In this document: one piece after another, positions 5,201 through 37,059 of the stretch | Layout: every line of letters starts with the position of its first letter | Position numbering within the stretch: position 1 is the stretch's first letter | Source of the DNA: Myxococcota bacterium | Lineage (GTDB): Bacteria; Myxococcota_C; UBA6777 | Direction: 5' to 3' | DNA length: 37,059 nt | NCBI GenBank assembly: GCA_023150835.1 | Contig: JAKLKB010000057.1 | Coordinates: forward strand, 1 to 37,059 | Translations under genes and position numbers: made by a program | Notes under the pieces: generated by a model | Database searches by the model: none | Seen by the model: the letters and a program-made list of their open reading frames with translations, nothing else | Told to the model about the DNA's origin: nothing

Positions 5201-5948
5201 CGAAGAAGATCTCAAGCAACAACGTCTCGCTCAGGCCCGAGAGAAAGCACGCGAAGTCCTTGCACAACACGCCCACCTCGCTCCGATCCGCTTTCTCCAG
5301 ATCCGACGCGAAGTTGATCAAGAAGAAAGCAAGCTCCAAAAAGCTCTTCAGGATCTGGATCGACGTGGTCGCGGTCCAAAAGACCCACGCGACCGAAACA
5401 AACAACTCGAAGCCCTCGCCGATCAAGCCGCACAACTCGGCTTTGTGCAACTCGCCACCGAAGGATACGAACACCTGACGCAGCGAAACGAAGGGTACGG
5501 TCTCGCATGGTTCAAACTCGCACGCACCACTCCGCACTCCGAACAACGCGATCGCGCCTACGCGAAGGCGATCTCGCTTGCACGCGGCCCCGAACAACGA
5601 CAGCGCAACCTCGAAGAATGGGCGCAGATCCTCGATCGAGAAGGCAAGCTCGATCTGCTCCTTCCCACGCTGCTTTCCATCCTCGAAGAACACAACGAAG
5701 AAGCCCAACAACTCGAACCGATCCTGCTTCAACTGATCGGGAAATACGGCGTCAAATCGGACGTTGCACAAAAACTCGAAGGCTTTCTCAAGCACCACCG
5801 CAGCGATCTCGATCTCAAACGCGCCGAACAAGCGCTTAATGAGATCGAGCATCTCGATCCTTGGAAGCGCCAGCTTCTTTCCATGCAAGCCGAGATCGCG
5901 CAAAAAAACAACGCTCGAACCACCCGCCGCCCACCTTCACGCCGTTGA
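2217..5948 (+). CDS. Degenerate RecQ-helicase-like domain fused to TPR/coiled-coil protein
   Basis: 1243 residues, function unknown. The first ~230 residues follow the order of RecQ helicase motifs but with key residues lost. FAKLTPWQRDIM (20-31) matches motif 0. PVGGGVGFSYLLPAL (45-59) matches the RecQ motif I PTGGGKS..YQ.PAL, with Lys replaced by Val50 and Ser by Gly51. TLVIC (66-70) matches motif Ia. VVFDGCG (132-138) sits where DEAH should be, with Asp kept and Glu lost. A Ser/Thr/Pro-rich linker (about 234-290) leads to a region that may be the second RecA and winged-helix part. From about 780 to the end there are TPR-like helices and a coiled coil near 970-1040, ending in a basic tail. 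ATP hydrolysis is unlikely. The ATG at 2217 has GGAG upstream. The stop codon lies inside a 25-bp tandem repeat. The RecQ relation is my reading of motif order; the TPR part is moderately clear. Confidence 0.85.
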   Translation: MSASEAQINRWEQRLLSCGFAKLTPWQRDIMQQWLQEASWIAFFPVGGGVGFSYLLPALEAPTGVTLVICGDAQRRTRREQQAQALGGQVLLPQADHELPPAHSGVVLMTTKEAEQRADQLPAWVTGRVRRVVFDGCGASAQAPSWWPAVQGLPFGFYPTEHKAEAWWANLLDIPHETLHYNHEAFEISWDLGEGSVVQKLGHALEAGARVLWMFGGQLFRHALEQTTGIHIQETPRYPAYSDPSEPSDANHREPSTTPYGDEAVSTQQNSDTSQVSSTPKTSSQSGQATVYLFPPDPTSLRHAPSPQRIFVGCLPSRLRDLGSLANLQPEQISILLPQETPNHHTPEQDDLLRYLEEKAQAHPDKPLYLNSHEIMQALKLPLSPQISYERSLNTLEDLLNQLQTKGSLGSWFPVFFQAKILNARGFQPAQMGQHPDLLAFHEAIAQMQKQLSPLESLNASFLSGRALDLRFIAKRTPYTVRELNAIFQKLHEQGFVVNQLEHLPGPQHSLEHEYQIQLGEITRPSLAVQLWSRTKEARLPLLLSSFSRQPLPEDTALQAVWNLDPQQNDFWEKALFLLDNAKKEQRLFVLGGRILQKLDRAPNDAGLALWMGLIATLQLPPLEDASLYRRLLPPPRQAPIGLFALCKHLLSQAPMPPRSWIDYVLALPSAEDDEEMSHLFVRHNAQRALGISRLHGRFRWLLQRYHQSMTQLTRSFLSQDPLPSEEANDQLSKETEESDIDEQPLVPAQTEEPTHDPDPPSPILVPQLRSMDVQRLATSFPIETLAAWGWTLHLLGESEAGLPLLRFAQQQEERYKQRYAKLALLVPKQLYREKSGWLRWLIEESEDRQDEKLRKRIMKLLIDRKEGTTSDLQQVALWAEQEGDHKRAARLHKQLIELRPEAPEHPAALARLSLQHNRLQDALQYAIQANRLNPRHYPLDVFLDKAQEALFADLDELRRLLVDLPAHPALSKIESELSQREQLAHQLAPLRKQAEEDLKQQRLAQAREKAREVLAQHAHLAPIRFLQIRREVDQEESKLQKALQDLDRRGRGPKDPRDRNKQLEALADQAAQLGFVQLATEGYEHLTQRNEGYGLAWFKLARTTPHSEQRDRAYAKAISLARGPEQRQRNLEEWAQILDREGKLDLLLPTLLSILEEHNEEAQQLEPILLQLIGKYGVKSDVAQKLEGFLKHHRSDLDLKRAEQALNEIEHLDPWKRQLLSMQAEIAQKNNARTTRRPPSRR

Positions 5949-5984
5949 TATCGCATCAAAATCGCGCCGTTGATATCGCATCGA
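5940..5984. repeat. 25-bp tandem duplication spanning the stop codon of the RecQ-like gene
   Basis: The segment CGCCGTTGATATCGCATC, containing the last Arg codon and the TGA stop, starts at 5940 and again at 5965. Both copies carry the TGA. One of six stop-proximal duplications in this window. Confidence 0.9.
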
Positions 5985-6067
5985 AGTGACGCGGTGGAAT
6001 GGTTTTGGGACACGAACACGGCTTTATTTTGGCAACAAGTCGCTCCTATAACGTAGAAGGATCTCGC

Positions 6068-7066
6068 ATGGCTCGAATCTTTGTCACCCATCCGCTTCCC
6101 GGTACGGCCTTCTTGCGCCTGAGCGAAGAACACCAAGTGACGGTCTTTTCAGCGGATCGCTCTCCCACAAAAGCAGAGATCATCGATCATCTCCAAACAG
6201 CCGAAGTTTTGGTATCGTTGATCACAGACGAGATCACCTCCGAAGTGATCGATGCCGCCCCCCACCTCCGAATCATCGCCAACTACGCCGTTGGATACAA
6301 CAATATCCATGTGGACTGGGCCACACGGCACAAGATCCCCGTCCTGCATACACCGCACGTCCTGACCGATGCTTCGGCAGATCTGGCCTTTGCTTTGATG
6401 CTTGCTGTGGCTCGTCGCATCGTCGAATCGGATCAATGGCTGCGCTCGGGTGCATGGGCGGGTTGGAAGCCTCAACAGATGCTTGGAACCCATGTCACGG
6501 GAAAAACCCTTGGGATCGTAGGGATGGGACGCATCGGGATCGCGCTTGCACGACGCGCACGCGGCTTTGAGATGCCGATCCTTTACACCAACCCAGAACG
6601 CCTCGCACCCGGCCTCGAACGCGAACTTGGAGCCCGTCACACCGATCTCGACGAACTCTTGGCTCAAAGCGACTTTGTCTCGCTACATTGCCCGCTTACG
6701 CCCCACACTCGCCACCTGATCAACGCGCAGCGCCTCCAACAAATGAAGCAGGGCGCGATCCTGATCAACACCGCACGCGGCCCGATTATCGACGAAGTCG
6801 CCCTTGTCGCCGCCCTTCAAACAGGCCCGCTCCAAGGGGCCGGTTTAGATGTTTTCGAACAAGAACCCGATGTCCACCCCGATCTACTGGCTTCTGCGCG
6901 TGTCGTTGTAACACCACACACAGGCAGCGCGACAACAGAAACACGCGCCGAGATGACCGCCCTACTCGTCGACGGTATCCATGCGATCCTCCAAGGCCGC
7001 ATCCCCCACAACGTCGTCAACCCCGAAGTTCTGCGCACACAGCAAGAACCCGATCAAGACGATTGA
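6068..7066 (+). CDS. NAD(P)-dependent 2-hydroxyacid dehydrogenase (glyoxylate/hydroxypyruvate reductase type)
   Basis: 332 residues, the usual length for D-isomer-specific 2-hydroxyacid dehydrogenases, which reduce 2-oxoacids such as glyoxylate or hydroxypyruvate with NAD(P)H in the cytoplasm. The Rossmann motif GMGRIG is at 152-157. The catalytic triad is present: Arg237 in NTARGP, Glu266 in DVFEQEP and His284 in TPHTGSAT. The substrate-binding stretch NYAVGYNNI lies at 72-80. A start at 5999 is possible, but the ATG at 6068 begins the conserved fold directly and has an AGAAGG-type ribosome site, so it is preferred. It ends 12 bases from the convergent kinase gene. The exact substrate cannot be fixed from sequence alone. 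Confidence 0.93.
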   Translation: MARIFVTHPLPGTAFLRLSEEHQVTVFSADRSPTKAEIIDHLQTAEVLVSLITDEITSEVIDAAPHLRIIANYAVGYNNIHVDWATRHKIPVLHTPHVLTDASADLAFALMLAVARRIVESDQWLRSGAWAGWKPQQMLGTHVTGKTLGIVGMGRIGIALARRARGFEMPILYTNPERLAPGLERELGARHTDLDELLAQSDFVSLHCPLTPHTRHLINAQRLQQMKQGAILINTARGPIIDEVALVAALQTGPLQGAGLDVFEQEPDVHPDLLASARVVVTPHTGSATTETRAEMTALLVDGIHAILQGRIPHNVVNPEVLRTQQEPDQDD

Positions 7067-7078
7067 TCACGTCCGACC

Positions 7079-8359: not shown

Positions 8360-8382
8360 GCACGCCCCCTTTCAAAAGGCCG

Positions 8383-9153: not shown

Positions 9154-9208
9154 CTGCTTTTTCTCCTTGTTTTTCTCTTCTTTGAGCAGGAGCGACTTAC
9201 TCGATAGG

Positions 9209-9327
9209 CTTTGTGGGGTTGGAACCCCACGCCCCGCCATAGAGCTTTGCCCCCTTGACCCCGCGTCGGCAAAGTGATCAGACGTTTTTCAAACCAACCA
9301 CTCTATCGCTTGAAGTGCCGCGAACAC
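9209..9327 (-). repeat. Dispersed ~118-bp hairpin element, copy A
   Basis: On the minus strand it reads through a caagcg segment, TTTGAAAAACGT, GGGGTCAAGGGGG and a terminal hairpin GTGGGG-TTCCAA-CCCCAC. The same order occurs in copies B (21387-21503) and C (34047-34165), and the last part in a partial copy D (30871-30911). It ends 55 bases before the SDR start codon in the same orientation. Confidence 0.8.
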
Positions 9328-9382
9328 AGGGATTTTTGGCAAACAGCATCGCTCATGCTTGGAAATAACACACCAAAACAAC

Positions 9383-9416: not shown

Positions 9417-9490
9417 CGTTTTGTACATCTGACCGCCTCTTACCGCAAGAGCAAAGACAAGGAAGCTCTCTCAGATCGGCGGGTTTCTTT

Positions 9491-9589
9491 CAAGGACAGG
9501 AATCATCTAGGAACTGCTCCACAGAACCTTTGTCATCCGTTTCGTTTAAGGGCAAGAATAGTACGGGAACTGACCCACAGAACCTTTGT
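9491..9589. repeat. 56-bp tandem duplication of the 3' end of the MopE lipoprotein gene
   Basis: Positions 9547-9589 (gene end) and 9491-9533 (downstream copy) are similar at a 56-base offset and share ACAGAACCTTTGT exactly. The downstream copy would still encode YKGSVEQFLDDSCP and a stop, against YKGSVGQFPYYSCP in the gene. It is therefore an eroded ghost of the C-terminus placed after the real stop. Confidence 0.85.
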
Positions 9590-11759
9590 AGCAGGCGGAC
9601 TTAAAACTCAAGGGATCAGGGCAACCAAACGAGGTTCCTTTATTCCAACGGCACGATCCGCCCGACACATAGCGGAAGTCATACACGGTCTGGCCCGAAC
9701 AAGACAACGTATTCTCGCCACACAAACACACAGCCTGATGGCCGAAGCTGGTGACGTAAGTTCCGCAACCCGTCACCTCCGTCCCCGTACAATGCGAGAA
9801 GACGATCACCGCATTTCCTTTTACGCCCACAGCGCCCACCACAGACTGCCAACGTGCGTTCGGGTCGTAGTCTGGCGTAAACTCCATACAATAATGCCCA
9901 GTCGAAGAATCCATATTCGAAGGCGCTTTGCAGCCCTGATAACCGCCATAGTTGATGCAAGAAGTCCCATAAGTCGCACTGCACCGCAAGATCCCAACAC
10001 GCCCCCTCGGGTCGCAAAGCGCCAATCGATCGGCATCAAGGCAGACTTGCCCAGCTTGAACAAGCGCTGTCGGGCAAAATTCGCCATCTTTGATGCAGCC
10101 ACCATTAAAAGGATAGTAACCACGGCTTGTATCGCACACACAACCACCGCTCACGCAGATCTTTTGCGATCCACATAACGATCCATTATCGACCATCCCA
10201 TCGCAGTTATCGTCGATGCTGTTGCAGGTCTCCGTTTGCGGATGGGTTTGACCTGTGCAAACACCCCATTGACCGACCAAGCACACTTGTGTCCCGCCTT
10301 TGCAGATGCCCTTCCCTTCGGTCCCAACAGGACCTGTATAACAAGCACGCGTCAGCCCTTCATCCACCGAACCGTCACAGTCGTCGTCTTGACCGTTGCA
10401 GCTTTCGGCCTGCGGTAAAACTTGCCCCACACAAACGCCCCATTGACCGGCAGTACACGTGCTTTTTCCTGTTTTACACACGCCCACGCCTGCGGTCCCC
10501 GTCGGTCCTGTATAACACGCTTGCACAAGACCCTCATCCACCGAACCATCACAGTTGTCGTCTTGACCGTTGCAGCTTTCGGCTTTTGGCAAGACCTCTC
10601 CCACACAAGCCCCCCATTGGCCCACAGAACACACTTGCGTACCACCTTTGCAGAGGCCCTTGCCTTCGGTTCCTGCCGCTCCTGTATAACAAGCGCGCTG
10701 AATGCCGTCATCGATCTGCCCGTTGCAATCGTCATCTTGACCGTTGCAGCTTTCGGCTTGCGGCAAGACCTGACCCACACAAGAACCCCATTGACCGGCC
10801 TCACAGATCTGTGTCCCTTCTTTGCATACCCCTACACTCGCCGTCCCCACGGGGCCTGTATAGCACCGCTTCACCAACCCCTCATCGATCTGGCCATCGC
10901 AGTTGTTGTCTTTTCCGTCGCAGACCTCGGCTTGTGGGAGAGTTTCTCCTTCACACTTTCCCCACACACCGTTGTCACAGCGTTGCTCACCATAGCGGCA
11001 GACCCCTGCTCCTGCCGTACCTTCAGGGCCTGTATAACAAATGCGCTTGACACCATCATCGATCATCCCGTCACAATCGTCATCTTTTCCATCACAAGTC
11101 GCCTCTGCGGTCGGGTCGTGCGGAGCTTGTTTTGGCAAGACCTGTCCGACACAAACGCCCCATTGACCGTTCTCACAGCGTTGCGTTCCCGATTTGCAAG
11201 TTCCGACATCTTGCGTGCCTGCGGGGCCTTCATAGCAAGGGCGATCGATCCCTTCGTCGATCTGCCCGTTGCAATCGTTGTCAACACCATCACAAGTCAC
11301 TTCTTTTTCCTCGAACCCTTGGGGGTAAACACAACGCCACGCCCCCGCTTCGCAGAGCACTTTGACATCACGACACGGCCCCAATATACGGCAACTCGGA
11401 GGCTTTACTCCTTCGCAAGGAGCAGGAATATGTTCAGGAATAATCGGCTCCGTGATCGCCTCTGTTGGAGCCTCTGCTTCTTTGTTCCCGCCATCTTCTC
11501 CCGCATCTTGGGTGTTTTCTGCACCGCCTTCGCGATCTTTGTCTCCCTCCGCCCGATGGGCTTCTATACTACTTTGCTCGGTGTTTCCTTCATCAGAAGC
11601 GCTTGCGGTGTCACAAAAACCACTTCGGCAGATCTCCCCCGCCAAACAATCATCGACCGACGCACAAGGACGATCTCCCCCTCCACATCCCCACAACGCC
11701 GCACAAACCACGATCCAACCCATACTCCAGAGACTTTGCTTTTTTTCTTGTACCTTCAT
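9546..11759 (-). CDS. MopE-repeat cysteine-rich lipoprotein
   Basis: 737 residues. A lipoprotein signal ends at ALWGC (Cys25), followed by a Cys-rich segment and an acidic low-complexity stretch (EGNTEQ..., GGNKEAEAP). Seven copies of the MopE-type motif C(D/N)G.D(N/D)(D/N)C(D/N)G..D alternate with CYTGP.GT..VG.C..G...C..GQWG.C.GQ.LP linkers. In the Methylococcus MopE family such motifs are associated with metal binding; here that is inference. A Cys-rich C-terminal domain of about 190 residues follows (CSATYGTSC, GHYCMEF, CYKGSVGQ). The ATG at 11759 has AAGGAGAG seven bases upstream; a longer start at 11798 would spoil the signal peptide. It lies 259 bases downstream of the giant MopE protein gene on the same strand and probably shares its envelope role. 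Confidence 0.92.
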   Translation of the reverse strand: MKVQEKKQSLWSMGWIVVCAALWGCGGGDRPCASVDDCLAGEICRSGFCDTASASDEGNTEQSSIEAHRAEGDKDREGGAENTQDAGEDGGNKEAEAPTEAITEPIIPEHIPAPCEGVKPPSCRILGPCRDVKVLCEAGAWRCVYPQGFEEKEVTCDGVDNDCNGQIDEGIDRPCYEGPAGTQDVGTCKSGTQRCENGQWGVCVGQVLPKQAPHDPTAEATCDGKDDDCDGMIDDGVKRICYTGPEGTAGAGVCRYGEQRCDNGVWGKCEGETLPQAEVCDGKDNNCDGQIDEGLVKRCYTGPVGTASVGVCKEGTQICEAGQWGSCVGQVLPQAESCNGQDDDCNGQIDDGIQRACYTGAAGTEGKGLCKGGTQVCSVGQWGACVGEVLPKAESCNGQDDNCDGSVDEGLVQACYTGPTGTAGVGVCKTGKSTCTAGQWGVCVGQVLPQAESCNGQDDDCDGSVDEGLTRACYTGPVGTEGKGICKGGTQVCLVGQWGVCTGQTHPQTETCNSIDDNCDGMVDNGSLCGSQKICVSGGCVCDTSRGYYPFNGGCIKDGEFCPTALVQAGQVCLDADRLALCDPRGRVGILRCSATYGTSCINYGGYQGCKAPSNMDSSTGHYCMEFTPDYDPNARWQSVVGAVGVKGNAVIVFSHCTGTEVTGCGTYVTSFGHQAVCLCGENTLSCSGQTVYDFRYVSGGSCRWNKGTSFGCPDPLSFKSACYKGSVGQFPYYSCP

Positions 11760-12018: not shown

Positions 12019-15000
12019 TCAGCCTTTCAAGAGGCGGAGGCGAAAGCGCACAAGCCAAGCCAAAAGAAGCAAACATAACCAAAAGATCGATGTATCGGCT
12101 GGGTTAGAAGCATCGCAGCCACAACCACCCCCAACGATCCCCACGCCCACGTCCGGCACATTCTCTGTGATCTGCTCTTGCCCGACTTCTTTGTCTGCGC
12201 CGTAGCACAAGCCTGCTCGACAAGTTCCGCCACCACAGTTCACCTTGTTGCAAGGATCGTCGATGCAACGGCTTTTTTCACAAAGGCGGCCATAGCGGCA
12301 AGGCGAAGCGACCGAGGCACAGGCATCTTGGGTGCATTGACCTTCTTGGCACGTTTCACCGCTTGGACAGGTCACCCCAAAACAAGGGTCTTTTTGACAA
12401 AGCCCGTCCACACAACGCTGACCACTCGCACAAGAAGAGCAAGACTTTTTGCAGCCGCCGCTTTGCGGATCGCAAAACTCGCCTGTTGCGCAGGTTTTGC
12501 TGTTGCAAGGATTGTCTTTACACGCACCTTGAGCGCAAAGCTGCGCCGTCGCACAGTCCTGTTTGGTATAACACCCGGGAGCAACGCACGCTGCGCTGAC
12601 GCAGATGCTATCGCCCGGACACTCGGCATCGACCTTACAAGGCCGACCGCCCACACACTGGCCCTTCTCACAAGTCGATGGGACGGGGCATTTCAGATCT
12701 TTACAAGGATCATCCACACAACGGCTGACCTCACAGACACGGCCTGTTTTGCACTGATCGCTGTTGGGGACACACTCGTTTGGAACGCACGCACCGCTTC
12801 GGCAGATCTCGTTGCTTTTGCAAGTGACTCCCGCGCATGGATCGGCTTTGCATCGTCCATCAAGACAGATCTGCTTTTCGGGGCAGAAGATCCCCGCGCA
12901 AGTTGCGACACAATCTCCCGCACGGCAGATCTGATCTTGCGTACAATTTTTGCCGACACACGGGTCTTTTAGACACTTTCCGTTGATGCACAGCTCGCCT
13001 TGTGCGCAATCTGCGGTAGCTGCGCAAGTTCGAGGGATACAAGTACGCTCAACGCAGATCTCCGTACCACCGCACTCTTTGTCAAATTGACAGCCCTTCG
13101 CTACGCATTGTCCAGCCACACAGATCTCGCCAGAGACGGGGCAAGTAATACCAAAACACGGATCATCGACACAAGCGTTGCTTGAGGGATCGCAGACACG
13201 ACCATGACGGCAAACACTGGCGTTTGTGCAATTGCTTTTCTCGCACTTTCCAGCCACACAAACTTCACCGACAGCACAAGACACCGATGCACAAGGATCC
13301 GCGACGCAAGCACCATCGACGCAGCGTTGGCCTTGAGCGCACGACACGCTGCCGCAGCTTTTTACGCACTTGTTGTCCGAAGGGCGGCAAAACTGCTCCG
13401 TGCTGCATGGCGTGCCGTTGGGTGCGGGACAAAGCTGTGGCTCGCAAATGGCTTTGACGCAGCGCTGTGTTTGGGGGCAATTGCTGGTGTAGCACTGGGC
13501 CGGTTGACAGATCCCTTGGAGGCAGACGTTCGTATTTGGGCAGTCGATATCGACCTTACATCGGGGGATATCCACACATTGGCCAAGAACACAGCGCTGG
13601 TTGTTGGGATCGGGGCACTGCACCTTGAGGCATGGATCTTCGGTGCATCGGCCTTGGACAGAGCAGATCCGACCAAAACGGCAAGACATACTGTTGCAAG
13701 GATTAGGGGAACACTTTGGCGCGCTGGTCGTGGTGTCGCAGATCTCATCGGCCTTGCAGGTAAGGCCCGCTGTTTGGCAAGGATCTTTACCGCACACTCC
13801 GTCTCGACAGGTCTGATCGGCGTTGCACTGCACTCCCGCACAAGGCTTAAAGCATATCCCATCGGCAGGACGGCAGGCTTCGCCAGCCGCACAGGTCTTA
13901 CCTTTACACGGATCAGGCAAACAAGCGCCTTCTTTGCAGAGATCATCTTGATAGAGGCAAGGCTGCGTTCGCGGCGTACAGATCGGCACAAAGCAACGAC
14001 CTTGGGGGTTTGCGCCAAAGATGCAGATCTGATCGTTCTTGCAATCGATATCGACCCGACAAGCTTGGCGGGGAGTGGCCTCGAATGTCTGGGTGTTGCA
14101 AAGAGGCGGAGTTCCGCTGTCACAGACCTCGACTTCAAATGTGGTGGTTTTGCCTTCTTCGCTTGGGGTGGGAGTCCAAGTGATCTTTCCTGTTTGAGGA
14201 TCGATGGTCGCCCCGGGGGGAGCTTGCTTGAGTTTCCAAGTGTGGGTGTCGCCTGTATCGGGGTCGCGTACGACAGGGGCGTACGTGAAGGCTTGTCCTG
14301 TGAGAGCATCGCTCGGTGGCGTTGAAGTGATCTCGGGAGGGTTGTTGCGTGGTGCGGTCAAGACACGCACTTGCCAACGGCGTTTGGTGCAGAGGCCTTG
14401 GCTGTCACAAAGCTCGATCTCAAAGTCAAAGGTTTTGCCGGCATCGTTGGGTCCGGGGGTCCAGTTCACCTCGCCTGTGTTGGGATCGACGGTCGCACCG
14501 GGAGGAAGCGTGTTGCCTTTCCATGTGTACGCCTCGTTGGGATCGGGATCGACGACAAAAGGCTTGAACTGATAAGCTTGGTTGGGGTTGGTCCATGTTT
14601 GCGGAGTACCGCCCATCTGGGGCGGTTTGCCTTTGTCTCCGACGCGAACTTTCCAGATGCGTTTTGCGCAAGCCCCCCGACTGTCGCAAACTTCCACCTC
14701 AAAAGTGAAGTCCTTTCCGACATCATTGGGTCCGGGGGTCCAGTTGAGTTTTCCTGTTTGAGGATCGACGGTCGCGCCACTCGGCCCTTGGTTGAGTTTC
14801 CAAGTGTGCGTATCTCCGACATCTGGATCGATGACTTTGGGTTCGTAGGCGTAAGGACGGCCTTGGGCAGCATCGTTGGAAGGTGCGCCGTCGATGATCG
14901 GAGGAGTATTGGGGACACCGCCGACTTTGACGCTCCAACGGAGCTTTGCGCAAGAGCCTTTGTCATCGCAGACTTCGATCTCGAAATTGATGGTCTTTCC

Positions 15001-26110: not shown

Positions 26111-26111
26111 G

Positions 26112-26224: not shown

Positions 26225-26234
26225 CCCCCAAAAT

Positions 26235-26342
26235 CCCCCAGCTTCCGCATTTTACACACTTCCCCCAGCTTCCGCATTTTACACACTTCCCCCAGCTTCC
26301 GCATTTTACACACTTCCCCCAGCTTCTGCATTTTACACACAA
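26235..26342. repeat. 27-bp tandem repeat, four copies
   Basis: The unit begins CCCCCAGCTTCCGCATTTT and starts at 26235, 26262, 26289 and 26316. The first three are identical; the fourth carries CTG for CCG. It sits between the MITE-like element and the end of the hemolysin III gene. No protein is supported. Confidence 0.95.
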
Positions 26343-26374
26343 AGCCCCTCGCCTCCCCTCGCCCATCCCTCCGC

Positions 26375-27076: not shown

Positions 27077-27234
27077 CCAACACTCCTTCAGCACACGTCA
27101 ATTCTTTTTGGTGGCGCAAACCACACCACCCGCTGAAGAAGAACATACAGCATCCCCTTTTCCCCATGTACCCCGACTCCCCTGAAATGACAAAAAGGTG
27201 ACAGAACGTCCCAGCCATCCGCCTCGATCCCCTT

Positions 27235-27351
27235 ATACGAGATCCGCCCGTTGAGTTATCGTAAAAATGTAGGGGCAGCCCCCCCTGTGGATGCCCAACA
27301 ATCGGGCGTCTACGTACTCTCCTTCGATCACAGATCACGCGGATATCGTAT
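27235..27351 (+). repeat. MITE-like element, copy 2 (117 bp)
   Basis: The clearest copy: left end ATACGAGATCCGC, right end GCGGATATCGTAT (12 of 13 bases inverted). The interior has TTATCGTAAAAATGTAGGGGC and GGATGCCC. It lies 13 bases beyond the stop of the minus-strand gene at 27365. No clear target-site duplication is visible. Confidence 0.85.
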
Positions 27352-27364
27352 TCTATCCTGCGCG

Positions 27365-28099: not shown

Positions 28100-28550
28100 A
28101 ACCTGATGCTTCCTTCTCTTCAAAACAGCGACCCGATTCGGCGCGTTGTGGGCGGTTGGAAAAGCACACAAACAAAGATCGTGCCACATCGCGACATCTT
28201 ACAAAACGATGAAAAACAAGCGAAAAATCAGTAAATCGATGGATCGACCAGATCCCCTCGCTCTGCTTTTCCTCGAACGTGGAGCATCCCCCTCCGCTTT
28301 GGTGGAGTAGAACCCTGCCGCTTCTCTCGCGGCATTCCAAAATTGCGGTGTATCTTTTCCCACACGCTTCTCTGCAAGCCGCGACCACAACAGCAAAGAA
28401 AAAACAAAAAGTCTAGGCATTCTCTGATAGTTATCTTTGGCGGTACTAGACTTGCGATACACGTTCCCCACACTCTTCCAAAGAAGATACCCCCCAAAAC
28501 ACTCGCGCCCGCACGACTCCCTTCAACAGATATCCCCAAAGGAGCGCCTG
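28100..28550. other. Divergent intergenic region
   Basis: About 450 bases between two divergent genes. It presumably holds two promoters, but I cannot identify them with confidence. A minus-strand 90-codon frame at 28199-28471 has no ribosome site and odd composition, and is not called as a gene. Confidence 0.5.
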
Positions 28551-30125
28551 ATGCAAACCAAACAACCCCCTCTTCTACCCAAACTCCACGCGCTGTTTTA
28601 CCCGATCCGCTCGCTCTCTTCAACACCGTCTCACCCGATCCGCTCGCTCTCTTCAACGCCGTCTCACCCGATCCGCTCGCTCTCTTCAATACTGGCCTTT
28701 TCTGTCCTCTCTCTCTTTCCAGCGCTTTCTTTCGCTCAAAGCCCCACTCCAACCTCCATTCCATCGAAACCACCGCTCCTTTCACCGTCGGCCTCTCCCA
28801 TGTCACCCACTTCACGGCCCACTTCGGCCCTCCAAGGACAAGCCACCCCCTCTGCCAAAACTTCCGAAGAACGCATCGCACCGTTTTCCTCCATCGAAGC
28901 GCAAAAGCGTATGCTTCTCCAAGAAGACATCAAGCTCGATCCCACCACTCTCAAAGAACTTGAATTCGCGCTCCCGCCCAAAGACTGCTCCCGCCCATGC
29001 CAAGAAGCTCTCGCCTCGATCCTCTACCACACCGCTCTACGCTTTCGGCGGATCGGCTATACCCGCATGGCCCGCTCTTATCTCCAACACATCCTCTTGT
29101 ACTACACCAACACCCGCATCGCCCGTATCGCCAAGCTTCATCTTCTCCAATGGGACACGCAGAAAGAAAGTTACAGAAACATCCAACAAAACATCCCCTT
29201 GTCTCCCAACGGACTCGATCAGCGTGGGCGCGTCGAGTTCATTGTCATGACCAGCCTTTACGGTATCTATTTTGGCGCGATGATGCCGTTTGCGTTTATC
29301 TCCGCAAACAACCCGGGCAATGGATGGGTGGGCCTGTCTTTGCTTGGTTTTACGGCTGCTGCGGTCGTCTCCTCGATTCTAGGCACGATGAACAGCGAGA
29401 TGACACCCGGACAAGCCAGCAGCGCCAGCGTCGGGATGTTTTGGGGCTTGCTTACGGGTGGGATGCTGCTCGCGGGCTTTTCAGGAAGCAATATCCAAAA
29501 CGAGATGTTCAAGTTCTTTTTCCTTGGCCCGCTTCTCGGCTACGCGGCGGGCGTGATTATCCCGCGTTTTGCGCGACCGACCGCCGGCCAGATCGCGCTC
29601 GGCTCGTCGATGGGCGCTTGGCTGGCTGGCTATACGGGGCTGATCTGGGGTAGCTTCATCACAGGAGGCGCGAGAAACATCAGCCCTTGGTCCTTGGTTA
29701 TCCCTCTTTTGATCTCGGCCTATGGCGGGCTATTTGGTGGGATATTTCTGCAAAATAAGCTCGACTGGTCGCGCAGCCGAACCTTATTTGTCAATCTCGG
29801 TGGCATCTTGGGAATCGTCCTCGCTGGAGGCATCTTCACGCTTGCTTCTGTCGGTGGGACCTTCAATACGCCCGCGTTGTTGATCACCATCCTCCTCAGC
29901 AGCCTCGCAGGAAAAGTCCTCACCTTTTTCCTCACGGGCAGTATGCCCACCGAATCGAGCGAAGAAGGAACCCCCCGTAAAACCGCCTCCCTTGGCGCGC
30001 TCGCAAACTACAGCGACGGACAGTGGTCTCTTGGCGCTCCCATCCCCATCCTCACCAACGATCCCACCGCTCCCGGCACAAACCGCGTCGAGATCCACGT
30101 CCCCCTCCTTCGTGGGCAATGGTGA
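28551..30125 (+). CDS. Multi-pass membrane protein with tandem-repeat signal region, unknown function
   Basis: 524 residues. The ATG at 28551 has AAAGGAG six bases upstream. The N-terminus carries three tandem HPIRSLSSTPS-type units (about 18-45), then a hydrophobic core SILAFSVLSLFPALSFA likely cleaved before QSP (about 62). A Ser/Pro/Thr-rich stretch, an amphipathic helical region resembling one TPR pair (CQEALASILYHTALRFRRIGY), and about seven Gly-rich membrane spans follow (for example GIYFGAMMPFAFI, GYAAGVIIPRFA, GGIFTLASVGGTF). The last ~65 residues are soluble. The Gly-rich spans with GSSMGAWLAGYTG look channel- or carrier-like, but I know no family. An envelope location is inferred. 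Confidence 0.8.
   Translation: MQTKQPPLLPKLHALFYPIRSLSSTPSHPIRSLSSTPSHPIRSLSSILAFSVLSLFPALSFAQSPTPTSIPSKPPLLSPSASPMSPTSRPTSALQGQATPSAKTSEERIAPFSSIEAQKRMLLQEDIKLDPTTLKELEFALPPKDCSRPCQEALASILYHTALRFRRIGYTRMARSYLQHILLYYTNTRIARIAKLHLLQWDTQKESYRNIQQNIPLSPNGLDQRGRVEFIVMTSLYGIYFGAMMPFAFISANNPGNGWVGLSLLGFTAAAVVSSILGTMNSEMTPGQASSASVGMFWGLLTGGMLLAGFSGSNIQNEMFKFFFLGPLLGYAAGVIIPRFARPTAGQIALGSSMGAWLAGYTGLIWGSFITGGARNISPWSLVIPLLISAYGGLFGGIFLQNKLDWSRSRTLFVNLGGILGIVLAGGIFTLASVGGTFNTPALLITILLSSLAGKVLTFFLTGSMPTESSEEGTPRKTASLGALANYSDGQWSLGAPIPILTNDPTAPGTNRVEIHVPLLRGQW
28600..28690. repeat. 33-bp tandem repeat in the signal-peptide region
   Basis: The unit ACCCGATCCGCTCGCTCTC with its following bases starts at 28600, 28633 and 28666 (last copy partial). 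It encodes PIRSLSSTPSH in frame, lengthening the basic part of the signal peptide. Confidence 0.95.
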
Positions 30126-30226
30126 GACTCCGACGCTGCGTTTTACAAAGGCCGCAGCACCCTCGCAGCAAAAGTCCGCCCCATCGAAAACCTCCCTCGG
30201 CACGAGGAGATGCGAAACACTCCATA

Positions 30227-30290
30227 ACACGAGATCCGCCCGTTGCGTTATCGTAAAGGAGTAGGGGCAGCCCCCCGTGGCTGCCCGAAG
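30227..30290 (+). repeat. MITE-like element, left half only (copy 3)
   Basis: CACGAGATCCGCCCGTTGCG, TTATCGTAAA, GTAGGGGCAGCC and GTGGCTGCCC match the left part of copy 2. The right half is missing and is replaced by different sequence (GTGTTGCGAACACGG). Confidence 0.75.
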
Positions 30291-30319
30291 TGTTGCGAAC
30301 ACGGCTTTTTTGGCGACTG

Positions 30320-30355
30320 CGTGAGTCCTATTTGGAAAAGGACTTACGCAGTTCG
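30320..30355. repeat. Long imperfect hairpin
   Basis: ACTGCGTGAGTCCT pairs with AGGACTTACGCAGT around a short A/T-rich loop (ATTTGGAA), with one or two mismatches. The loop side TCCTATTTGGAAAAG recurs at 30565-30580, where the 41-bp array begins, hinting that the array grew from it. Confidence 0.75.
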
Positions 30356-30446
30356 ATACGAAAAAGGCCCATGTTCGGGCGTGGACGGTTCGCGAACCGC
30401 CCCTACAACGTTCTGACATCTCAGGGTTTCCCTTTTCAACTGCGTC

Positions 30447-30561
30447 ATACGATATCCGAGTGATGTGTGATCGTAAGATATCGCCCAGACGCCCGATTCT
30501 TGGGCAGCCACACCTGTCTGCCCCTACACCGTTACGGTGACACACCCTGCGGATTTCGTAT
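30447..30561 (-). repeat. MITE-like element, copy 4 (115 bp, inverted)
   Basis: Read on the minus strand: ATACGAAATCCGC, CGTAACGGTGTAGGGGCAGA, TGTGGCTGCCCAAGAATCG, GGGCGTCT, TCGGATATCGTAT. This is the same order as copies 1 and 2, in the opposite orientation. Confidence 0.8.
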
Positions 30562-30566
30562 AAGTC

Positions 30567-30835
30567 CTATTTGGAAAAGAAGGCGACGAATGCGGTACAC
30601 AACGGCTTTTTTTGGGAAAGAAGGCGATGATCAAAACGCACAACGGCTTTTTTTGGAAAAGAAGGCGATGATCAAAACGCACAACGGCTTTTTTTGGAAA
30701 AGAAGGCGATGATCAAAACGCACAACGGCTTTTTTTGGAAAAGAAGGTGATGATCAAAACGCACAACGGCTTTTTTTGGAAAAGAAGGCGATGATCAAAA
30801 CGCACAACGGCTTTTTTTGGAAAAGAAGGCGATAC
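30567..30835. repeat. 41-bp tandem repeat, about six copies
   Basis: The unit includes CTTTTTTTGGAAAAGAAGG and GATGATCAAAACGCACAACG. CTTTTTTT starts at 30605, 30647, 30688, 30729, 30770 and 30811, so the first spacing is 42 and the rest 41. Inner copies are almost identical; the first is diverged. Confidence 0.95.
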
Positions 30836-30870
30836 ACACGGAAGGACGGGGGAGAGAGCAGGAGAAGAGA

Positions 30871-30911
30871 ACGCGGCTCCCTTGAGGGGGGGTGGGGTTC
30901 CGATCCCACAA
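30871..30911 (+). repeat. Partial hairpin element, copy D
   Basis: CCCTTGAGGGGG followed by GTGGGGTTCCGATCCCAC-AAAACC matches only the terminal third of copies A-C. It lies seven bases from the alanine racemase stop, where its hairpin could help end transcription. Confidence 0.6.
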
Positions 30912-30917
30912 AACCAT

Positions 30918-32066
30918 TCACGCGACCCAGCGTCGGCGGATATGATGCGGAAGGCGCGATACCGCTTCGTAATGGATCGTCCCGAACCACGAAGCAAAAG
31001 ACTCTGCCTTGATCTCTTCTTCTCCCTGCTTGCCGATCAAAACCACCTCATCTTCAAGATCCACCCCCCCGATATCCGTCACATCGACCATCGTCAAGTT
31101 CATACAGATCCGCCCACGCACAGGCGCACGTTGGCCTCGGATCAAAACATACCCAACGTTGGACAGCCCCCGATCATAACCGTCGTAGTAGCCGATCGGC
31201 AAGATCGCCAAGCGGATCCCCCGTGTTGTCCGATACGTGCAACCATACCCGATGTACTCGCCCGCAACGACTTCTTTGACTTGCGTGACAACCGTTTTCC
31301 ACGACAACACGGGCCTGAGCGGAAACGAGGAGCGCCCTTCTTGGAGCAGCGAGACATACGTTTCCCGCGACGGCCACAAGCCATATGCGCTAATCCCCGG
31401 GCGGATCATCTCAAAATGCGTTTCGCGAAACAACATCGACGCTGCCGAAGCCGCTGCATGGCGGATCTGTGGGCGGATCCCATGTTTTTCTAGCATCTCC
31501 AAACCCCGCTCAAAACGCTCCAACTGCATCTTCGCATACGAATGATCCGTCGTGTCTTCGATGTTCGCAAAGTGCGTATAACAGCCCTCCAACACCAGAT
31601 GCTTTGACGTATGGATCGACCGTGCCAAGATCAACAGATCCCGCCCTTGCAACCCCTGCCGGTTCGTCCCCGTCTCGATCTTCAGATGTACCGCCACTCG
31701 CTCATCCAACGCTTCTGCGATCCGCGCCAAGGCTTCGGCACTTTCCCAATTGGTCACCATCACCCGCAAACCGCGACGTACCACCTCTTCCATCCCCTCG
31801 AACGGTACGTAGCCCAACACCAAGATCGGACACGTCGCCCCCGCATCTTGCGCGATCATCGCTTCTTGAAGACTGTGTACTCCCAACCAATCCGCCCCGC
31901 ACGACGGCATCACCCGCGCCATCTCCGCAAGCCCATGACCATACGCATTCGCTTTGATCGGCACCAGCAGACGCACCCCCTCAGCCATACTCTCCCGAAA
32001 CAAGCCCAAGTTATGCTCCAAAGCGCCCTTGCTTAGCTCGATCCACGTCAGATCCATCCCTGCCAT
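30918..32066 (-). CDS. alr: Alanine racemase
   Basis: 382 residues, normal length. This PLP enzyme interconverts L- and D-alanine in the cytoplasm and supplies D-Ala for peptidoglycan. The PLP lysine is Lys38 in the signature PIKANAYGHG. The second catalytic base is Tyr274 in YIGYGCTYRT. RHAAASAA (202-209), IRPGISAYG (221-229) and the C-terminal RICMNLTMVDVT (319-330) are conserved in the family. The ATG at 32066 has GGAGG five bases upstream. It follows the DNA glycosylase-like gene on the same strand after a 35-bp tandem array. Confidence 0.96.
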   Translation of the reverse strand: MAGMDLTWIELSKGALEHNLGLFRESMAEGVRLLVPIKANAYGHGLAEMARVMPSCGADWLGVHSLQEAMIAQDAGATCPILVLGYVPFEGMEEVVRRGLRVMVTNWESAEALARIAEALDERVAVHLKIETGTNRQGLQGRDLLILARSIHTSKHLVLEGCYTHFANIEDTTDHSYAKMQLERFERGLEMLEKHGIRPQIRHAAASAASMLFRETHFEMIRPGISAYGLWPSRETYVSLLQEGRSSFPLRPVLSWKTVVTQVKEVVAGEYIGYGCTYRTTRGIRLAILPIGYYDGYDRGLSNVGYVLIRGQRAPVRGRICMNLTMVDVTDIGGVDLEDEVVLIGKQGEEEIKAESFASWFGTIHYEAVSRLPHHIRRRWVA

Positions 32067-32193
32067 CGTCGCCTCCGTCTCTCGCCGCGCACCTCGGTAT
32101 CCTTTTCACCCAAACCCTCGAATCTTCGATGAAAGCCCCGTGAAAAAACCGCGTACCTTCCCACCCTACGACGCCCTCCACCCCAACGCAAAA

Positions 32194-32333
32194 TTTTATG
32201 CCTTGCCGTAGCGCATACAACCCGCTGCTTTTATGCCTTGCCGCAGCGCATACAACCCGCTGCTTTTATGCCTTGCCGCAGCGCATACAACCCGCTGCTT
32301 TTATGCCTTGCCGTAGCGCGTATAACCCGCTGC
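32194..32333. repeat. 35-bp tandem repeat formed from the 3' end of the glycosylase-like gene
   Basis: Copies start at 32194, 32229, 32264 and 32299. The last copy is the real gene end: on the minus strand it encodes AAGYTRYGKA and the TAA stop. The other three lie downstream and repeat the stop codon with two or three changes. Confidence 0.95.
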
Positions 32334-33191
32334 CGCGCAAGCCCCGTACAACTCGCATTGTTCGGTCGTGGATACATCCTTGTAGAAAAAGGAGCGCAGC
32401 GCCTTCTGCTTCCCTGCTTCAAACGCCTCGATATAACTCGCGATCGACTTGCGCGGCGTGCCGACACGCTGATGGATCGTCTCCAGATCCGCTCCCTGCA
32501 AGGCCAAAGAAAGACTCGTGAAATGCCGACCTTTCTTCACACGCCTTGCATCCGAGATATAGCGATATTCACGCATCACATAACGCGATGGCAAGCTCTC
32601 CGCAGGTGTATTCTTCCCATCACCACGCTTCAAAAACAGCCCAAAACGCGGCGTCTTCACCACTTCGCGCTTCGAGATGGACGGATCATGCTCCAACCAC
32701 AACAACCGCTCCGCATCCTCCCGCACCACCGAACGATCCCCCATCCGCTCCACCAACTCCACCACCGATCCTGCCCCACAACCCGCCAAGATGTGATCCA
32801 CCGACAGCGACGGACCCGAGATAAACACTTCTTCCTCTCCCTCTCCGACCAACCCCTCGATCGTGCGGATCAAGATCCCGCCATAGTACCCTTCGGGCGC
32901 AAACGTGATATCCAGCCCCTTAAAAGACCCACCCCGATACTCTTCTCCCGTTCGATGAAAGTACCAATGCGCCGTCCGCAACTGCATCTCGTCGCAGTGC
33001 GCAAATGGATCAGGATGCGTCGAACCGTTCGCGTAAAACTCGATCTCCACCAGCCGATACGGTCGCCCTCCCACCCGCAAGATCGTCTCATTCAACAGCG
33101 TCTCCGCGATCTCATCAAAGATCGACTCCGCCTCTTCTGCAACACCAATCCCCAACAGCCCCTTCGCTTGCAATACCGCATACAAAGACAT
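32301..33191 (-). CDS. 3-methyladenine DNA glycosylase-like (AAG/MPG fold) protein
   Basis: 296 residues. The middle follows the AAG/MPG base-excision repair fold. RLVEIEFY (46-53) matches RIVETEAY, placing the catalytic Glu at 51 and the base-stacking Tyr at 53. DPFAHCDE puts a His at 65 where AAG has its active-site His. WYFHRTGEEYRGGSFKGLDITF matches the beta-strand region MF..PG..YVY..YGM. GGILIRTIEGL places Arg109 at the AAG active-site Arg, and ISGPSLSVDHIL matches the GPSKL.QAL segment. All four key residues are therefore kept, though overall similarity is low and the C-terminal ~130 residues are not AAG-like. It may excise alkylated bases or a different lesion. The ATG at 33191 follows an AAGGAG-type site. 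Alanine racemase lies downstream. Confidence 0.8.
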   Translation of the reverse strand: MSLYAVLQAKGLLGIGVAEEAESIFDEIAETLLNETILRVGGRPYRLVEIEFYANGSTHPDPFAHCDEMQLRTAHWYFHRTGEEYRGGSFKGLDITFAPEGYYGGILIRTIEGLVGEGEEEVFISGPSLSVDHILAGCGAGSVVELVERMGDRSVVREDAERLLWLEHDPSISKREVVKTPRFGLFLKRGDGKNTPAESLPSRYVMREYRYISDARRVKKGRHFTSLSLALQGADLETIHQRVGTPRKSIASYIEAFEAGKQKALRSFFYKDVSTTEQCELYGACAAAGYTRYGKA

Positions 33192-33296
33192 ACCTCACTC
33201 TCCTTGTTGGAAGTCTATTGCTCCTTGGCTTGGATAATCTGCCCTCCAACTTACCCCACACCCCCTCGCTCTCACAAGCCCCACCTTCACGCCCGA

Positions 33297-33390
33297 CCCA
33301 CCTTCTGCACTCACCCCTTCCTCGCCCTATCCTGCGCACCCTGTCCCTTGCGCGCTCCACCTTTTGCACTCAGGGCCTTCGCCCGATCCT
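33297..33390. repeat. Imperfect duplication abutting the stop of the small lipoprotein gene
   Basis: CCACCTTTTGCACTCAGGG...GCCCGATCCT at 33357-33390 and CCACCTTCTGCACTCACCC...GCCCTATCCT at 33297-33333 are similar at an offset of about 57-60 bases. The nearer copy ends at the first base of the stop codon. Confidence 0.65.
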
Positions 33391-33683
33391 CAAGGAATAA
33401 AGGTGCTTTGGCCACCGCAACGACCGTCTGGATGCAGCCATTGGCGGCGAAAAGCCTGACCATCTGGACAACGCACCACTTGCACTTTCAAGTTCCCTTG
33501 CGCGTTGTAGCAAGGATACACCACACGCCGCACAAAACAGCCGTTCGGACGGTACCAGGTCCGAACGATCTTGCTTCCGGGTGCGTGCGCCGAACTCACA
33601 TGATGCGTATTGCACGCCGACATCGCACCCAACCCACCCAACAACACCAACATCGCTAACGTCTTCTTCACAAAGGATGTCAT
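33390..33683 (-). CDS. Small Cys-containing lipoprotein, unknown function
   Basis: 97 residues. Lipoprotein signal MTSFVKKTLAMLVLLGGLGAMSAC (written in full: residues 1-24), lipidated at Cys24. The ~70-residue mature part has the pattern WYRPNGCFVRRVVYPCY and VRCPDGQAFRRQW-LHPDGRC: two similar halves with four cysteines, which suggests an internal duplication of a small disulphide-bonded unit. The ATG at 33683 is chosen for the signal peptide and an AAAGGG site; the open frame reaches 33770 but adds an unlikely basic leader. No family recognised. Confidence 0.8.
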   Translation of the reverse strand: MTSFVKKTLAMLVLLGGLGAMSACNTHHVSSAHAPGSKIVRTWYRPNGCFVRRVVYPCYNAQGNLKVQVVRCPDGQAFRRQWLHPDGRCGGQSTFIP

Positions 33684-34201
33684 CGCTTGACCCTTTCTAT
33701 CTGTTCCGACCTTGCCCATTCGCAAAGCCCTTGCTTTTGTGCTCTCTCTCGTCTCGCACCCGACCCTCAAACGCCCTTCACGGCGGAGCGCTTTCGCGCC
33801 TCGTGCAAAATCAATACCCGCAACCGATGCACATACTAGCCCTCACCTCGACGATCGACAAGACTTTTTTTGCCCGCCCCTGCTCTCCATCTTCGTTGAC
33901 GCTTCCAACTCCATCTTCATTGACGCTTCAAAGAGGATGTGCCATGATGCGCCCTTGTTTTGCGAAACCTTCCTTTCCCCCCATCTCCGAGGAGATCGGG
34001 TTCTTTTGAACGTCATGGAACAGGGGGACGCAGTGGACAAAAACCCGCGTTCGCGGACACCCAAGCGGCACAGACGTTGGACTGAAAAACGTTTGCTCAC
34101 TCCGCCAACACGGGGTCAAGGGGCGACCGCCCCTTGCGGGGTCTGGGGCAGCGCCCCACAACAACCAAAACCCACCGCGACACTCCTCAATGGGAACAAC
34201 G
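33684..34201. other. Divergent intergenic region with repeats (518 bp)
   Basis: It holds a 24-bp direct repeat (CTCCATCTTCGTTGACGCTTC at 33886 and again at 33910 with small changes) and copy C of the hairpin element (34047-34165). Open frames here translate the hairpin element and are not believed. Confidence 0.65.
34047..34165 (+). repeat. Dispersed ~118-bp hairpin element, copy C
   Basis: CGTTCGCGGACACCCAAGCGG, CTGAAAAACGTT, CCGCCAACACGGGGTCAAGG, a GGGGCGACCGCCCC hairpin and GGGGCAGCGCCCC. It ends 36 bases before the lipoprotein start at 34202 in the same orientation, as copy A does for its gene. Confidence 0.8.
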
Positions 34202-34879
34202 ATGCGACGATGGTTCGGTATCTTTTCGCTTTGTAGCCTGCTGCTGATCTCTTGCACCAAAACCCAACAAGTCAAAGAAGACAAGCCCGCCCCCACTCAA
34301 GAAACCAACCCAGACGATCTCAACAAAAAACTCGGCCTCCCCGATGGGCTCGAGACGATCGTCTTTCCCAAAAAAGGCTTCTTCCAAGCCTTCCTCCACC
34401 CCAACGGCCTGCTCAAAGCCGACGCCCCACAAAACAAAAAAGACGACTGGTCCAAAGATTATCTGCGCCCAAAACAAACCCTCACTTGGTTCGCCCGCCT
34501 GCGCCCCGAAGCAGGCGCAAAGATCGGCTCCTACATCAGCAACTTCGTTGTCATGGCCACTTACAATGATCCCGCTGGCTTCCAACAAAGCGCGATCGTC
34601 TTGCTCCAAGCTGGCATCCTCCGCGACGGCAAAGAACAACTCTTTTTCCAAAGTCTCCAAAAGCCTCGCGGCCAAAACTACGCCCGCTACGACCAACCCA
34701 ACCGCGAGATCAACGCCGATATCACCCTCCAAAAAGACGACCTGATCTTCTTTCGCACCATCCATCGCAAAGGCCCCGCAGGAGCCGTCGCTTACGGGGG
34801 CGGCCTCGGTTCCGCAAGCTCTCAATTCGTCATCTCTCACGAAGAACTCGGCTCCAAATATATCCAATACACCCCCTGA
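34202..34879 (+). CDS. Predicted lipoprotein, unknown function
   Basis: 225 residues. Signal MRRWFGIFSLCSLLLISC with the lipidated residue at Cys18. After a charged linker (KEDKPAPTQETNPDD) comes a ~190-residue domain with alternating beta-like segments (TLTWFARLRPEAGAKIG, FVVMATYNDPAG, SAIVLLQAG, DLIFFRTIHRKG), compatible with a beta-sandwich. No family recognised. The ATG at 34202 has GGA six bases upstream; the in-frame ATG at 34190 is an alternative adding four residues. It is 67 bases upstream of the ClpX-like gene on the same strand, possibly one unit. Confidence 0.8.
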   Translation: MRRWFGIFSLCSLLLISCTKTQQVKEDKPAPTQETNPDDLNKKLGLPDGLETIVFPKKGFFQAFLHPNGLLKADAPQNKKDDWSKDYLRPKQTLTWFARLRPEAGAKIGSYISNFVVMATYNDPAGFQQSAIVLLQAGILRDGKEQLFFQSLQKPRGQNYARYDQPNREINADITLQKDDLIFFRTIHRKGPAGAVAYGGGLGSASSQFVISHEELGSKYIQYTP

Positions 34880-34946
34880 CCTTCCTTCGCCTCAAAAAAC
34901 AGCGAAGCTCCACCGCGAACAAAGAAGATGTCGAGGCCATTTGACG

Positions 34947-36077
34947 ATGAGCATGGATCTCCACCGCCACGAGACCGACGAAGATATCACCGATATCGTC
35001 GAAGATATCCCACGCTTGACCCCACGCGAGATCTTTGATGAACTCGGACAACTCGGCTACGTCGGACAAGACAACGCCCGACGTACCATGTCCCTCATGG
35101 CTTATCGACACGTCCAACGTGTCCGCGCCATCCATCTTGACGCTGTCCCCGTCCAACAACTCCCCCCCAAGTCCAACCACCTCCTGATCGGACCCACCGG
35201 CTGCGGCAAAACACACCTGATCGAACTGCTTTTCCGCCACATCTTCAAACTCCCCACCGCTCTCGTCGACATCACCAACTACTCCGAAACGGGATACGTC
35301 GGCCAAGACGTCAACTCCATCCTTACCCGCCTAATCTACGCCGCCGAAAACTCCGTCGCTCTCGCTGAAATAGGCGTCATCTGCCTCGACGAATTCGACA
35401 AGATCGCCAGCGGACAAAATAACGCTGTCTTCTCGGGCGCCGGTACCACCAAAGATATCAGCGGCCTCGGCGTTCAACGCGAACTGCTCAAACTCCTCGA
35501 ATCCACACAAATCACCGTACCCACCGAGTTTTCACACAGCAGCTACCAACAATTCGTCATGATGTCCACCGCAAATATCCCCTTCATCGCCTGCGGTGCT
35601 TTTTCCGGCTTCAAGTTGATCACCCACCTGTTTTCTCGCACCCCTCGCCTCGGCTTTACCACCCACACACAAGGGCGCGAACCCCAAGAGATCGCCGTCT
35701 CTTACACCGAAGACGAAGTCGAACAAACCCGACACTTCCAACAATACGGCTTTCTCCCCGAACTGATCGCCCGCTTTGACCGCATCATCCCCTTTCGCGC
35801 CCTCGACCGCGACACCCTGCTCACCATCCTCCAAAACAACCTCATCTCCACCCTCCGCAAAGAATTTTCTCTCGCAGGCATCCACCTTGACATCGATCCT
35901 TCGCTCGATTCCTATATCGTCGATCAAGCCCTACGCCGCGAAACAGGCGCTCGTGGCCTTCGTTCCACGCTCTCACGTATGCTCGAAGATGTCGCCTTTG
36001 ACGTATACTCCGAACCTTCCATCCGCGAAGTTCGCGTCGCATGGAAGCAAGATGCTCTCTCTATCGACAAATCCTAA
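34947..36077 (+). CDS. ClpX-like AAA+ ATPase lacking the N-terminal zinc-binding domain
   Basis: 376 residues. Walker A GPTGCGKT (82-89), pore loop GYVG (116-119), Walker B VICLDE (D148/E149), the RKH-loop region TTKDISGLGVQRELLKLLEST, TANIPFIACGAF, the arginine-finger region ELIARFDRI (Arg276) and sensor 2 GARGLR (Arg336) all follow ClpX order. ClpX normally begins with a ~60-residue Cys4 zinc domain that binds adaptors; here it is replaced by a short acidic leader without cysteines. LGF at 235-237 sits where ClpX has its IGF ClpP-docking tripeptide, so ClpP partnership is possible. The fold should unfold proteins in the cytoplasm. The ATG at 34947 is used; a TTG at 34941 is closer to GAGG and is an alternative. 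The stop lies within a 65-bp duplication. Confidence 0.9.
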   Translation: MSMDLHRHETDEDITDIVEDIPRLTPREIFDELGQLGYVGQDNARRTMSLMAYRHVQRVRAIHLDAVPVQQLPPKSNHLLIGPTGCGKTHLIELLFRHIFKLPTALVDITNYSETGYVGQDVNSILTRLIYAAENSVALAEIGVICLDEFDKIASGQNNAVFSGAGTTKDISGLGVQRELLKLLESTQITVPTEFSHSSYQQFVMMSTANIPFIACGAFSGFKLITHLFSRTPRLGFTTHTQGREPQEIAVSYTEDEVEQTRHFQQYGFLPELIARFDRIIPFRALDRDTLLTILQNNLISTLRKEFSLAGIHLDIDPSLDSYIVDQALRRETGARGLRSTLSRMLEDVAFDVYSEPSIREVRVAWKQDALSIDKS

Positions 36078-36148
36078 ACCCGACCATCCGCGAAGTCCGC
36101 GTCGCATGGAAACAAGATGCCCTCTATACCGACAGTTCCTCAACCCGA
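36016..36148. repeat. 65-bp tandem duplication across the ClpX-like stop codon
   Basis: ATCCGCGAAGTTCGCGTCGC starts at 36021 and its copy, with one change, at 36086. The first copy includes the last ~20 codons and the TAA. In the second copy the TAA position reads TCA. Confidence 0.95.
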
Positions 36149-36199
36149 CTTTGACGCCCCTCTCTCGCGGGCCGTCCCTCGCAAACGGAGGCTTACCCG

Positions 36200-36928
36200 A
36201 TGGATTCTGTGGCCGCTTATCTCATCCTTTCCCAAAAAAGCGATACCGCCGCGATCATGGAACTTCTTACACAATCGCGTGGCGTCGTCCTTTTTGTTCT
36301 TATCCTTCTCATCGGCTTCTCGGTGATGTGTTGGGGCATCATCGTCTACAAGTGGTTCGTCCTCTACCAAGCCCAAAATCAATCCCTCGACTTCCTCGAT
36401 CTCTTCTGGGGTAGCAAGCGCCTCGACAACATCTTCAAAGAGTCCGAAGAACTCAGCCGCAGCCCCATCGCACAAGTCTTTCGCGCCGGATACATCGAAC
36501 TCAACAAGATCCAAAAACAAGCCGCCGCCACCACCGACAATAGCTCCATGAGCCAAGCCCTCGGTGGACTCGAAAATATCCAGCGCGCCATGCGACGCGC
36601 CACAAATACCGAGATGTCCTACATGGAACGCTATATGCCCTTCCTCGCTACCACCGCCTCCGCCGCTCCCTTCGTCGGCCTCTTCGGTACCGTCTGGGGC
36701 ATTATGAAATCCTTTATCGGTATCAAAGAAGCCGGAACTGCCGGCCTAAACGTCGTCGCCCCCGGGATCGCCGAAGCCCTGATCGCCACCGCCGTTGGAC
36801 TCGCTGCCGCTATCCCCGCCGTCATCGCCTACAACTTCTTTCTCAGCAAAATCCGCGGCATCGACGGCGAGATCGACAACTTCTCCAACGACTTCCTCAA
36901 CATCGTCAAACGGCACTTCCTCAAATAA
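36200..36928 (+). CDS. TolQ/ExbB/MotA-type proton channel subunit
   Basis: 242 residues with three membrane spans: GVVLFVLILLIGFSVMCWGI near the N-terminus, then FLATTASAAPFVGLFGTVWGIM and GIAEALIATAVGLAAAIPAVIAYNFF. The motif PFVGLFGTVWGIM..F and ALIATAVGLAAAIPAV are signatures of TolQ/ExbB, the inner membrane stator that uses proton flow with TolR/ExbD to energise envelope functions. The family conserves a polar residue in the third span (here Thr in ATAVGL). The ATG at 36200 has GGAGG eight bases upstream. A TolR/ExbD partner would be expected beyond the right edge of the window. The stop begins a 41-bp tandem array. Confidence 0.94.
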   Translation: MDSVAAYLILSQKSDTAAIMELLTQSRGVVLFVLILLIGFSVMCWGIIVYKWFVLYQAQNQSLDFLDLFWGSKRLDNIFKESEELSRSPIAQVFRAGYIELNKIQKQAAATTDNSSMSQALGGLENIQRAMRRATNTEMSYMERYMPFLATTASAAPFVGLFGTVWGIMKSFIGIKEAGTAGLNVVAPGIAEALIATAVGLAAAIPAVIAYNFFLSKIRGIDGEIDNFSNDFLNIVKRHFLK

Positions 36929-37059
36929 CCCCGCCCATTCGATGCTTGGGCCGCTCTTTCCTTTCATAACCCCGCCCATTCGATGCTTGGGCCGCTCTTT
37001 CCTTTCATAACCCCGCCCATTCGATGCTTGGGCCGCTCTTTCCTTTCATAACCCCGTCC
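36926..37059. repeat. 41-bp tandem repeat starting at the TolQ-like stop codon
   Basis: The unit begins TAACCCCGCCCATTCGATG and starts at 36926, 36967, 37008 and 37049, continuing past the window edge. The first TAA is the gene's stop codon, and every copy repeats it. Copies are identical except a T in the last partial one. Confidence 0.97.

Follow-up and report, generated by a model that had tools for sequence, protein, structure and literature searches.

Several genes in the window, by which we mean the whole contig analyzed here (C224, 37,059 bp), end in a short tandem duplication that spans or touches the stop codon, and the question that this raises is whether stop codons attract such duplications, are improved by them, or are simply places where they do no harm. 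The window belongs to a genome of 7.56 Mb in 239 contigs that is 93% complete, and we compared it with its closest available relative, Myxococcota bacterium KLAP109 (hereafter the sister species), with which it shares 97% of alanine racemase residues and about 90% DNA identity (about 83–96% over aligned parts). We conclude that the arrays are very probably minisatellites, in which duplications survive wherever neither a protein nor 5′ signals are broken, and that the stop codon forms a shoulder of the array distribution rather than a peak.

The original prediction had listed six repeats at stop codons. Using Tandem Repeats Finder (TRF), a sensitive scan, and self-alignment scored against dinucleotide shuffles, we found five of these (predicted at 5940, 9491, 32194, 36016, and 36926) to be real (Table 1); four of the five were also seen by TRF or the sensitive scan, and self-alignment scores reached 23 at 5937-5998 and 29 at 9483-9589, against shuffle maxima of 11 and 12, respectively. 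The sixth, claimed at 33297-33390 with a unit of 57–60 bp, barely exceeds shuffled sequence: within 33291-33372 only 23 bp align at an offset of 59, with a score of 15 versus a shuffle maximum of 14, and we rejected it. That repeat is also absent from the sister species, and it is doubtful that the 88-aa gene predicted at this place is real.

Table 1. Tandem arrays and dispersed elements in the window, with copy numbers in the window and the sister species.
Feature	Position	Strand	Context	Copies (window vs sister)
25-bp tandem duplication, 81% identity	5937-5998	+	spans TGA stop 5946-5948 of gene 2217-5948	2 vs 1 (alignment)
56-bp tandem duplication, 78% identity	9483-9589	-	spans TAA stop 9546-9548 of gene 9546-11759	2 vs 2
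35-bp x4 array, 96%	32194-32333	-	copy 32299-32333 carries end of gene 32301-33191 and its TAA stop 32301-32303	4 vs 1
65-bp x2 duplication, 88%	36019-36149	+	last part of gene 34947-36077 (by eye a ClpX-like AAA protein), including TAA stop 36075-36077	2 vs 1
41-bp x3.2 array	36925-37056, into contig end 37059	+	begins at TAA stop 36926-36928 of gene 36200-36928	at least 3 vs 2 (diverged)
45-bp x4.2 array	22816-23005	-	in-frame coding, protein kinase gene 21543-24248	one unit fewer in sister
27-bp x4 array	26234-26340	.	intergenic, no stop touched	absent from sister
33-bp x2.7 array	28600-28689	.	N-terminal (signal-peptide-like) part of gene ending 30125	about one copy in sister
41-bp x6.4 array	30570-30833	.	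intergenic, between ends of two convergent genes, touching neither stop	
Family A copy	26111-26224		adjoins TAA 26108-26110 of gene 24554-26110	
Family A copy	27235-27351			
Family A copy	30235-30562			
Family B copy	9210-9335			
Family B copy	21379-21502			
Family B copy	34039-34162			

A comparison of copy number between relatives had been proposed, and at four of the five loci the number does differ between the window and the sister species. The repeat at 9483-9589, with two copies in each, is an old duplication common to both species. The units differ at each locus, with no sequence shared among those of the window, and the alignments show the confirmed repeats to be mostly recent, independent, and locus-specific local duplications. 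In a wider sample, an orthologous site exists for three stop-touching TRF arrays; the sister has one copy at each, and the differences amount to exactly one, two, and three units.

Arrays in the window are also found away from stop codons (Table 1), including one at 28600-28689 whose unit, inside a gene, is a multiple of three. Two minus-strand genes, 9546-11759 and 12019-21147, encode proteins made of many CDGKDNDCDGQID-type motif repeats that by eye resemble MopE; the 186-bp DNA period of the latter may be repeated a different number of times in the sister, in which the contig breaks off at this point.

To place the window in its context, array statistics were taken from 1.6 Mb (1.61 Mb) of the genome, 21% of the whole, with genes called by our own hexamer-based caller trained on the same genome (1,025 genes in 1.61 Mb, 81% coding); the count in this sample is too low for arrays at which the assembly broke. 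The 41-bp array is cut off by the contig end at 37059, and it is therefore probable that long arrays do break the assembly. The claim that roughly a third of the genes are affected fits the window, where 5 of 17–18 gene ends lie in arrays, but not the genome, where only 58 of 973 stops (6.0%) do so in the sensitive scan (binomial P 0.0025 for the window); the window is unusually rich, and it came under study because its repeats had caught the eye. In array density the genome also exceeds a mixed set of loci from other taxa, scanned alike, about threefold (∼27 versus ∼9 per 100 kb), which makes several stop-touching cases within one window less surprising.

In our placement model, the unit of every array could fall with equal probability anywhere in non-coding DNA or on a tolerated stop overlap. 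Under this model 25.7 stop-overlapping arrays are expected in the 1.6 Mb, and 28 were observed (P = 0.34). Convergent gaps, which contain no starts and thus offer the cleanest test, held 9 stop overlaps versus 13.4 simulated, and no rise of arrays towards the stop was seen in them. By occupancy, arrays cover 2.3% of mid-gene positions, 6.0% of stops, and 1.8% of starts; at 40, 80, 120, and 160 bp downstream of the stop they cover 14.2, 13.5, 12.3, and 12.9%, a flat plateau, and at 40–160 bp upstream of starts 4.8–8.4%. The stop is thus a shoulder of the profile, and the sister species has a similar one (7.3% at stops and 14.4% at 40 bp past them, 0.8% at starts and 1.4% at 40 bp before them). 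Stops showed no enrichment relative to the remaining non-coding positions, which is the outcome that the original prediction had itself named as counting against an anchoring of the repeats on stop codons. Only in tandem (stop-to-start) gaps do arrays crowd near the stop, with 34 within 20 bp of it versus 23.7 simulated (P = 0.0025) and a deficiency at 50–150 bp (14 versus 23). This pattern runs counter to a reading in which stops have no special place; it may be owed to the promoter of the following gene and its ribosome-binding site. Starts were touched by 8 arrays versus the ∼24.6 expected had starts been equally tolerant, and in six of these eight the unit is a multiple of three; it is probably selection that keeps starts poor in arrays.

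Under the explanation that we favor, short segments (about 15–130 bp) would be duplicated head-to-tail at places not specially chosen, some arrays would then change copy number, and selection would remove any duplication that disrupts a reading frame or 5′ signals. Where the segment included a gene end, the first copy would keep the stop and the protein would be unaltered, so that a duplication reaching into the gene end would be protein-neutral and persist like any non-coding one, whereas one that included a start or promoter would often not survive. The initial duplications presumably arose by replication slippage or low-homology template switching. In 24 recent two-copy arrays the residual overlap ranged from none to 39 bp and was at most 2 bp in half of them, and a search for Ku (PF02735), directed at end-joining duplication, gave no match in the window's genome or in four members of its family. 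A neutral view of this kind had been put forward at the outset, in the form that such repeats survive only after stops; its neutrality is supported, but the repeats are not so confined, since arrays also occur upstream of starts, at about half the density, and within genes, where the period is divisible by three in 238 of 250.

Searching the window against the sister genome brought to light two families of dispersed elements that were not born of slippage. Family A, with 217 loci in the 1.6 Mb, is an apparently mobile 115-bp palindrome that encloses a GTAGGGGC hairpin; it is strongly represented in the window's genome and the sister species, leaves traces in one further family member (G002), and is absent from the other two (G003 and G004); it is genus-restricted. 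Its termini are TACGA...TCGTA with TNA on the flanks. This flanking TNA is a target duplication: where it stands on both sides of a copy, the middle base is the same in 46 of 63 (P 7e-15), and the sequence at one clean empty site is CTCTG-TAA-AGC. Thirty-nine loci lie within 3 bp of a gene's stop, 28 of them in one exact register, and the adjoining stops are 30 TAA, 9 TGA, and 0 TAG, although TAG ends 18% of genes; the element is found at stops because TAA and TGA fit its TNA target. Among strictly defined copies, 21 of 116 are at stops, twice the expectation over all gap positions (P 0.0017) but no different from the expectation with only half of the gap sites tolerated, and this rate reflects the same tolerance filter as that acting on the tandem arrays. 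Family B (∼126 bp, 159 loci in the 1.6 Mb) often lies 20–50 bp downstream of a stop, and its copies show present/absent differences versus the sister.

One could envision instead that events at the ends of transcription (termination, supercoiling, or collisions in convergent gaps) drive a mutational process favoring duplication in 3′ flanks and convergent gaps beyond what tolerance alone would give, the stop being just nearby. Such a process would account for array densities of 0.87, 0.74, and 0.42 per kb in convergent, tandem, and divergent gaps, respectively, and for a roughly threefold higher occupancy of 3′ than of 5′ flanks at 40 bp (14.2% versus 4.8%). However, no rise towards the stop was seen in convergent gaps, and the two dispersed families, counted per kb of gap, are likewise densest in convergent, intermediate in tandem, and sparsest in divergent gaps; that families of a different origin share the polarity of the arrays points to tolerance, and we regard a process of this kind as unlikely.

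We think it most improbable that selection has kept duplicated gene ends for some benefit of a repeated stop or of a 3′ RNA structure. Several copies at the window loci do bear a second stop codon, but the second copy at 36019-36149 has lost its stop (CTC for CTA), and none of the five confirmed periods is a multiple of three. Genome-wide, unit length at stops is a multiple of three in 19 of 58 arrays by the sensitive scan and in 10 of 28 by TRF, which is the random third; because a fail-safe stop must be in frame, this chance-level frequency argues that in-frame second stops have not been selected. Nor does structure offer support: predicted folding at the five loci was not unusual relative to shuffles (z −1.1 to +1.3). 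The lack of an excess at stops is a further point against such selection. No Rfam matches were found in the window. Terminator-like patterns number 24 versus 14.1 in shuffles across 25000-37059, but were absent from the three stop-touching arrays of that region.

Equally hard to credit is a slippage, repair, or transposition process aimed at stop codons, the focus on gene ends that had first been suggested, for which the five window stops and the higher occupancy of stops than of starts (Fisher P 1.7e-6) might be cited. That contrast with starts disappears once positions 40–160 bp downstream, which lie in arrays twice as often as stops, are taken as the proper control. Stop overlap equals the uniform expectation, the sister profile is alike, the units have no common sequence, and none of the 28 stop-touching arrays overlaps a dispersed element.

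The arrays, which we take with considerable confidence to be of a known kind, resemble bacterial minisatellites or VNTRs: the units are tens of bp long, head-to-tail, unrelated between loci, and either non-coding or in frame, and copy number varies between relatives. Units longer than ∼10 bp were found head-to-tail at five of the six predicted loci, with differing copy numbers, and frame is kept in genes (238/250); nothing essential sets them apart from minisatellites, and what differs is their density. Our search of the literature for stop-anchored tandem repeats found nothing closer than a description of Borg elements, archaeal extrachromosomal elements with tandem repeats of near-perfect A-rich units (PMC9879509), in contrast to the imperfect units found here on a bacterial chromosome. 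GTAG-tagged REPs lie mainly downstream of genes, are in some cases nested in longer palindromes, and have termini that often supply the stop codon, so that this role of REP termini has already been described (PMC3733652). REPs are a dispersed sequence family without tandem duplication and thus differ from our arrays; family A, for its part, differs from REPs in its TNA target duplication, and the genome yields only weak matches to Y1-transposases.

What began as a striking local pattern thus becomes a measured null. Where minisatellites abound, arrays that straddle stops are to be expected and should not be taken as a sign of regulation, and the same tolerance explains how an element with a TNA target comes to be found exactly on TAA and TGA stops.
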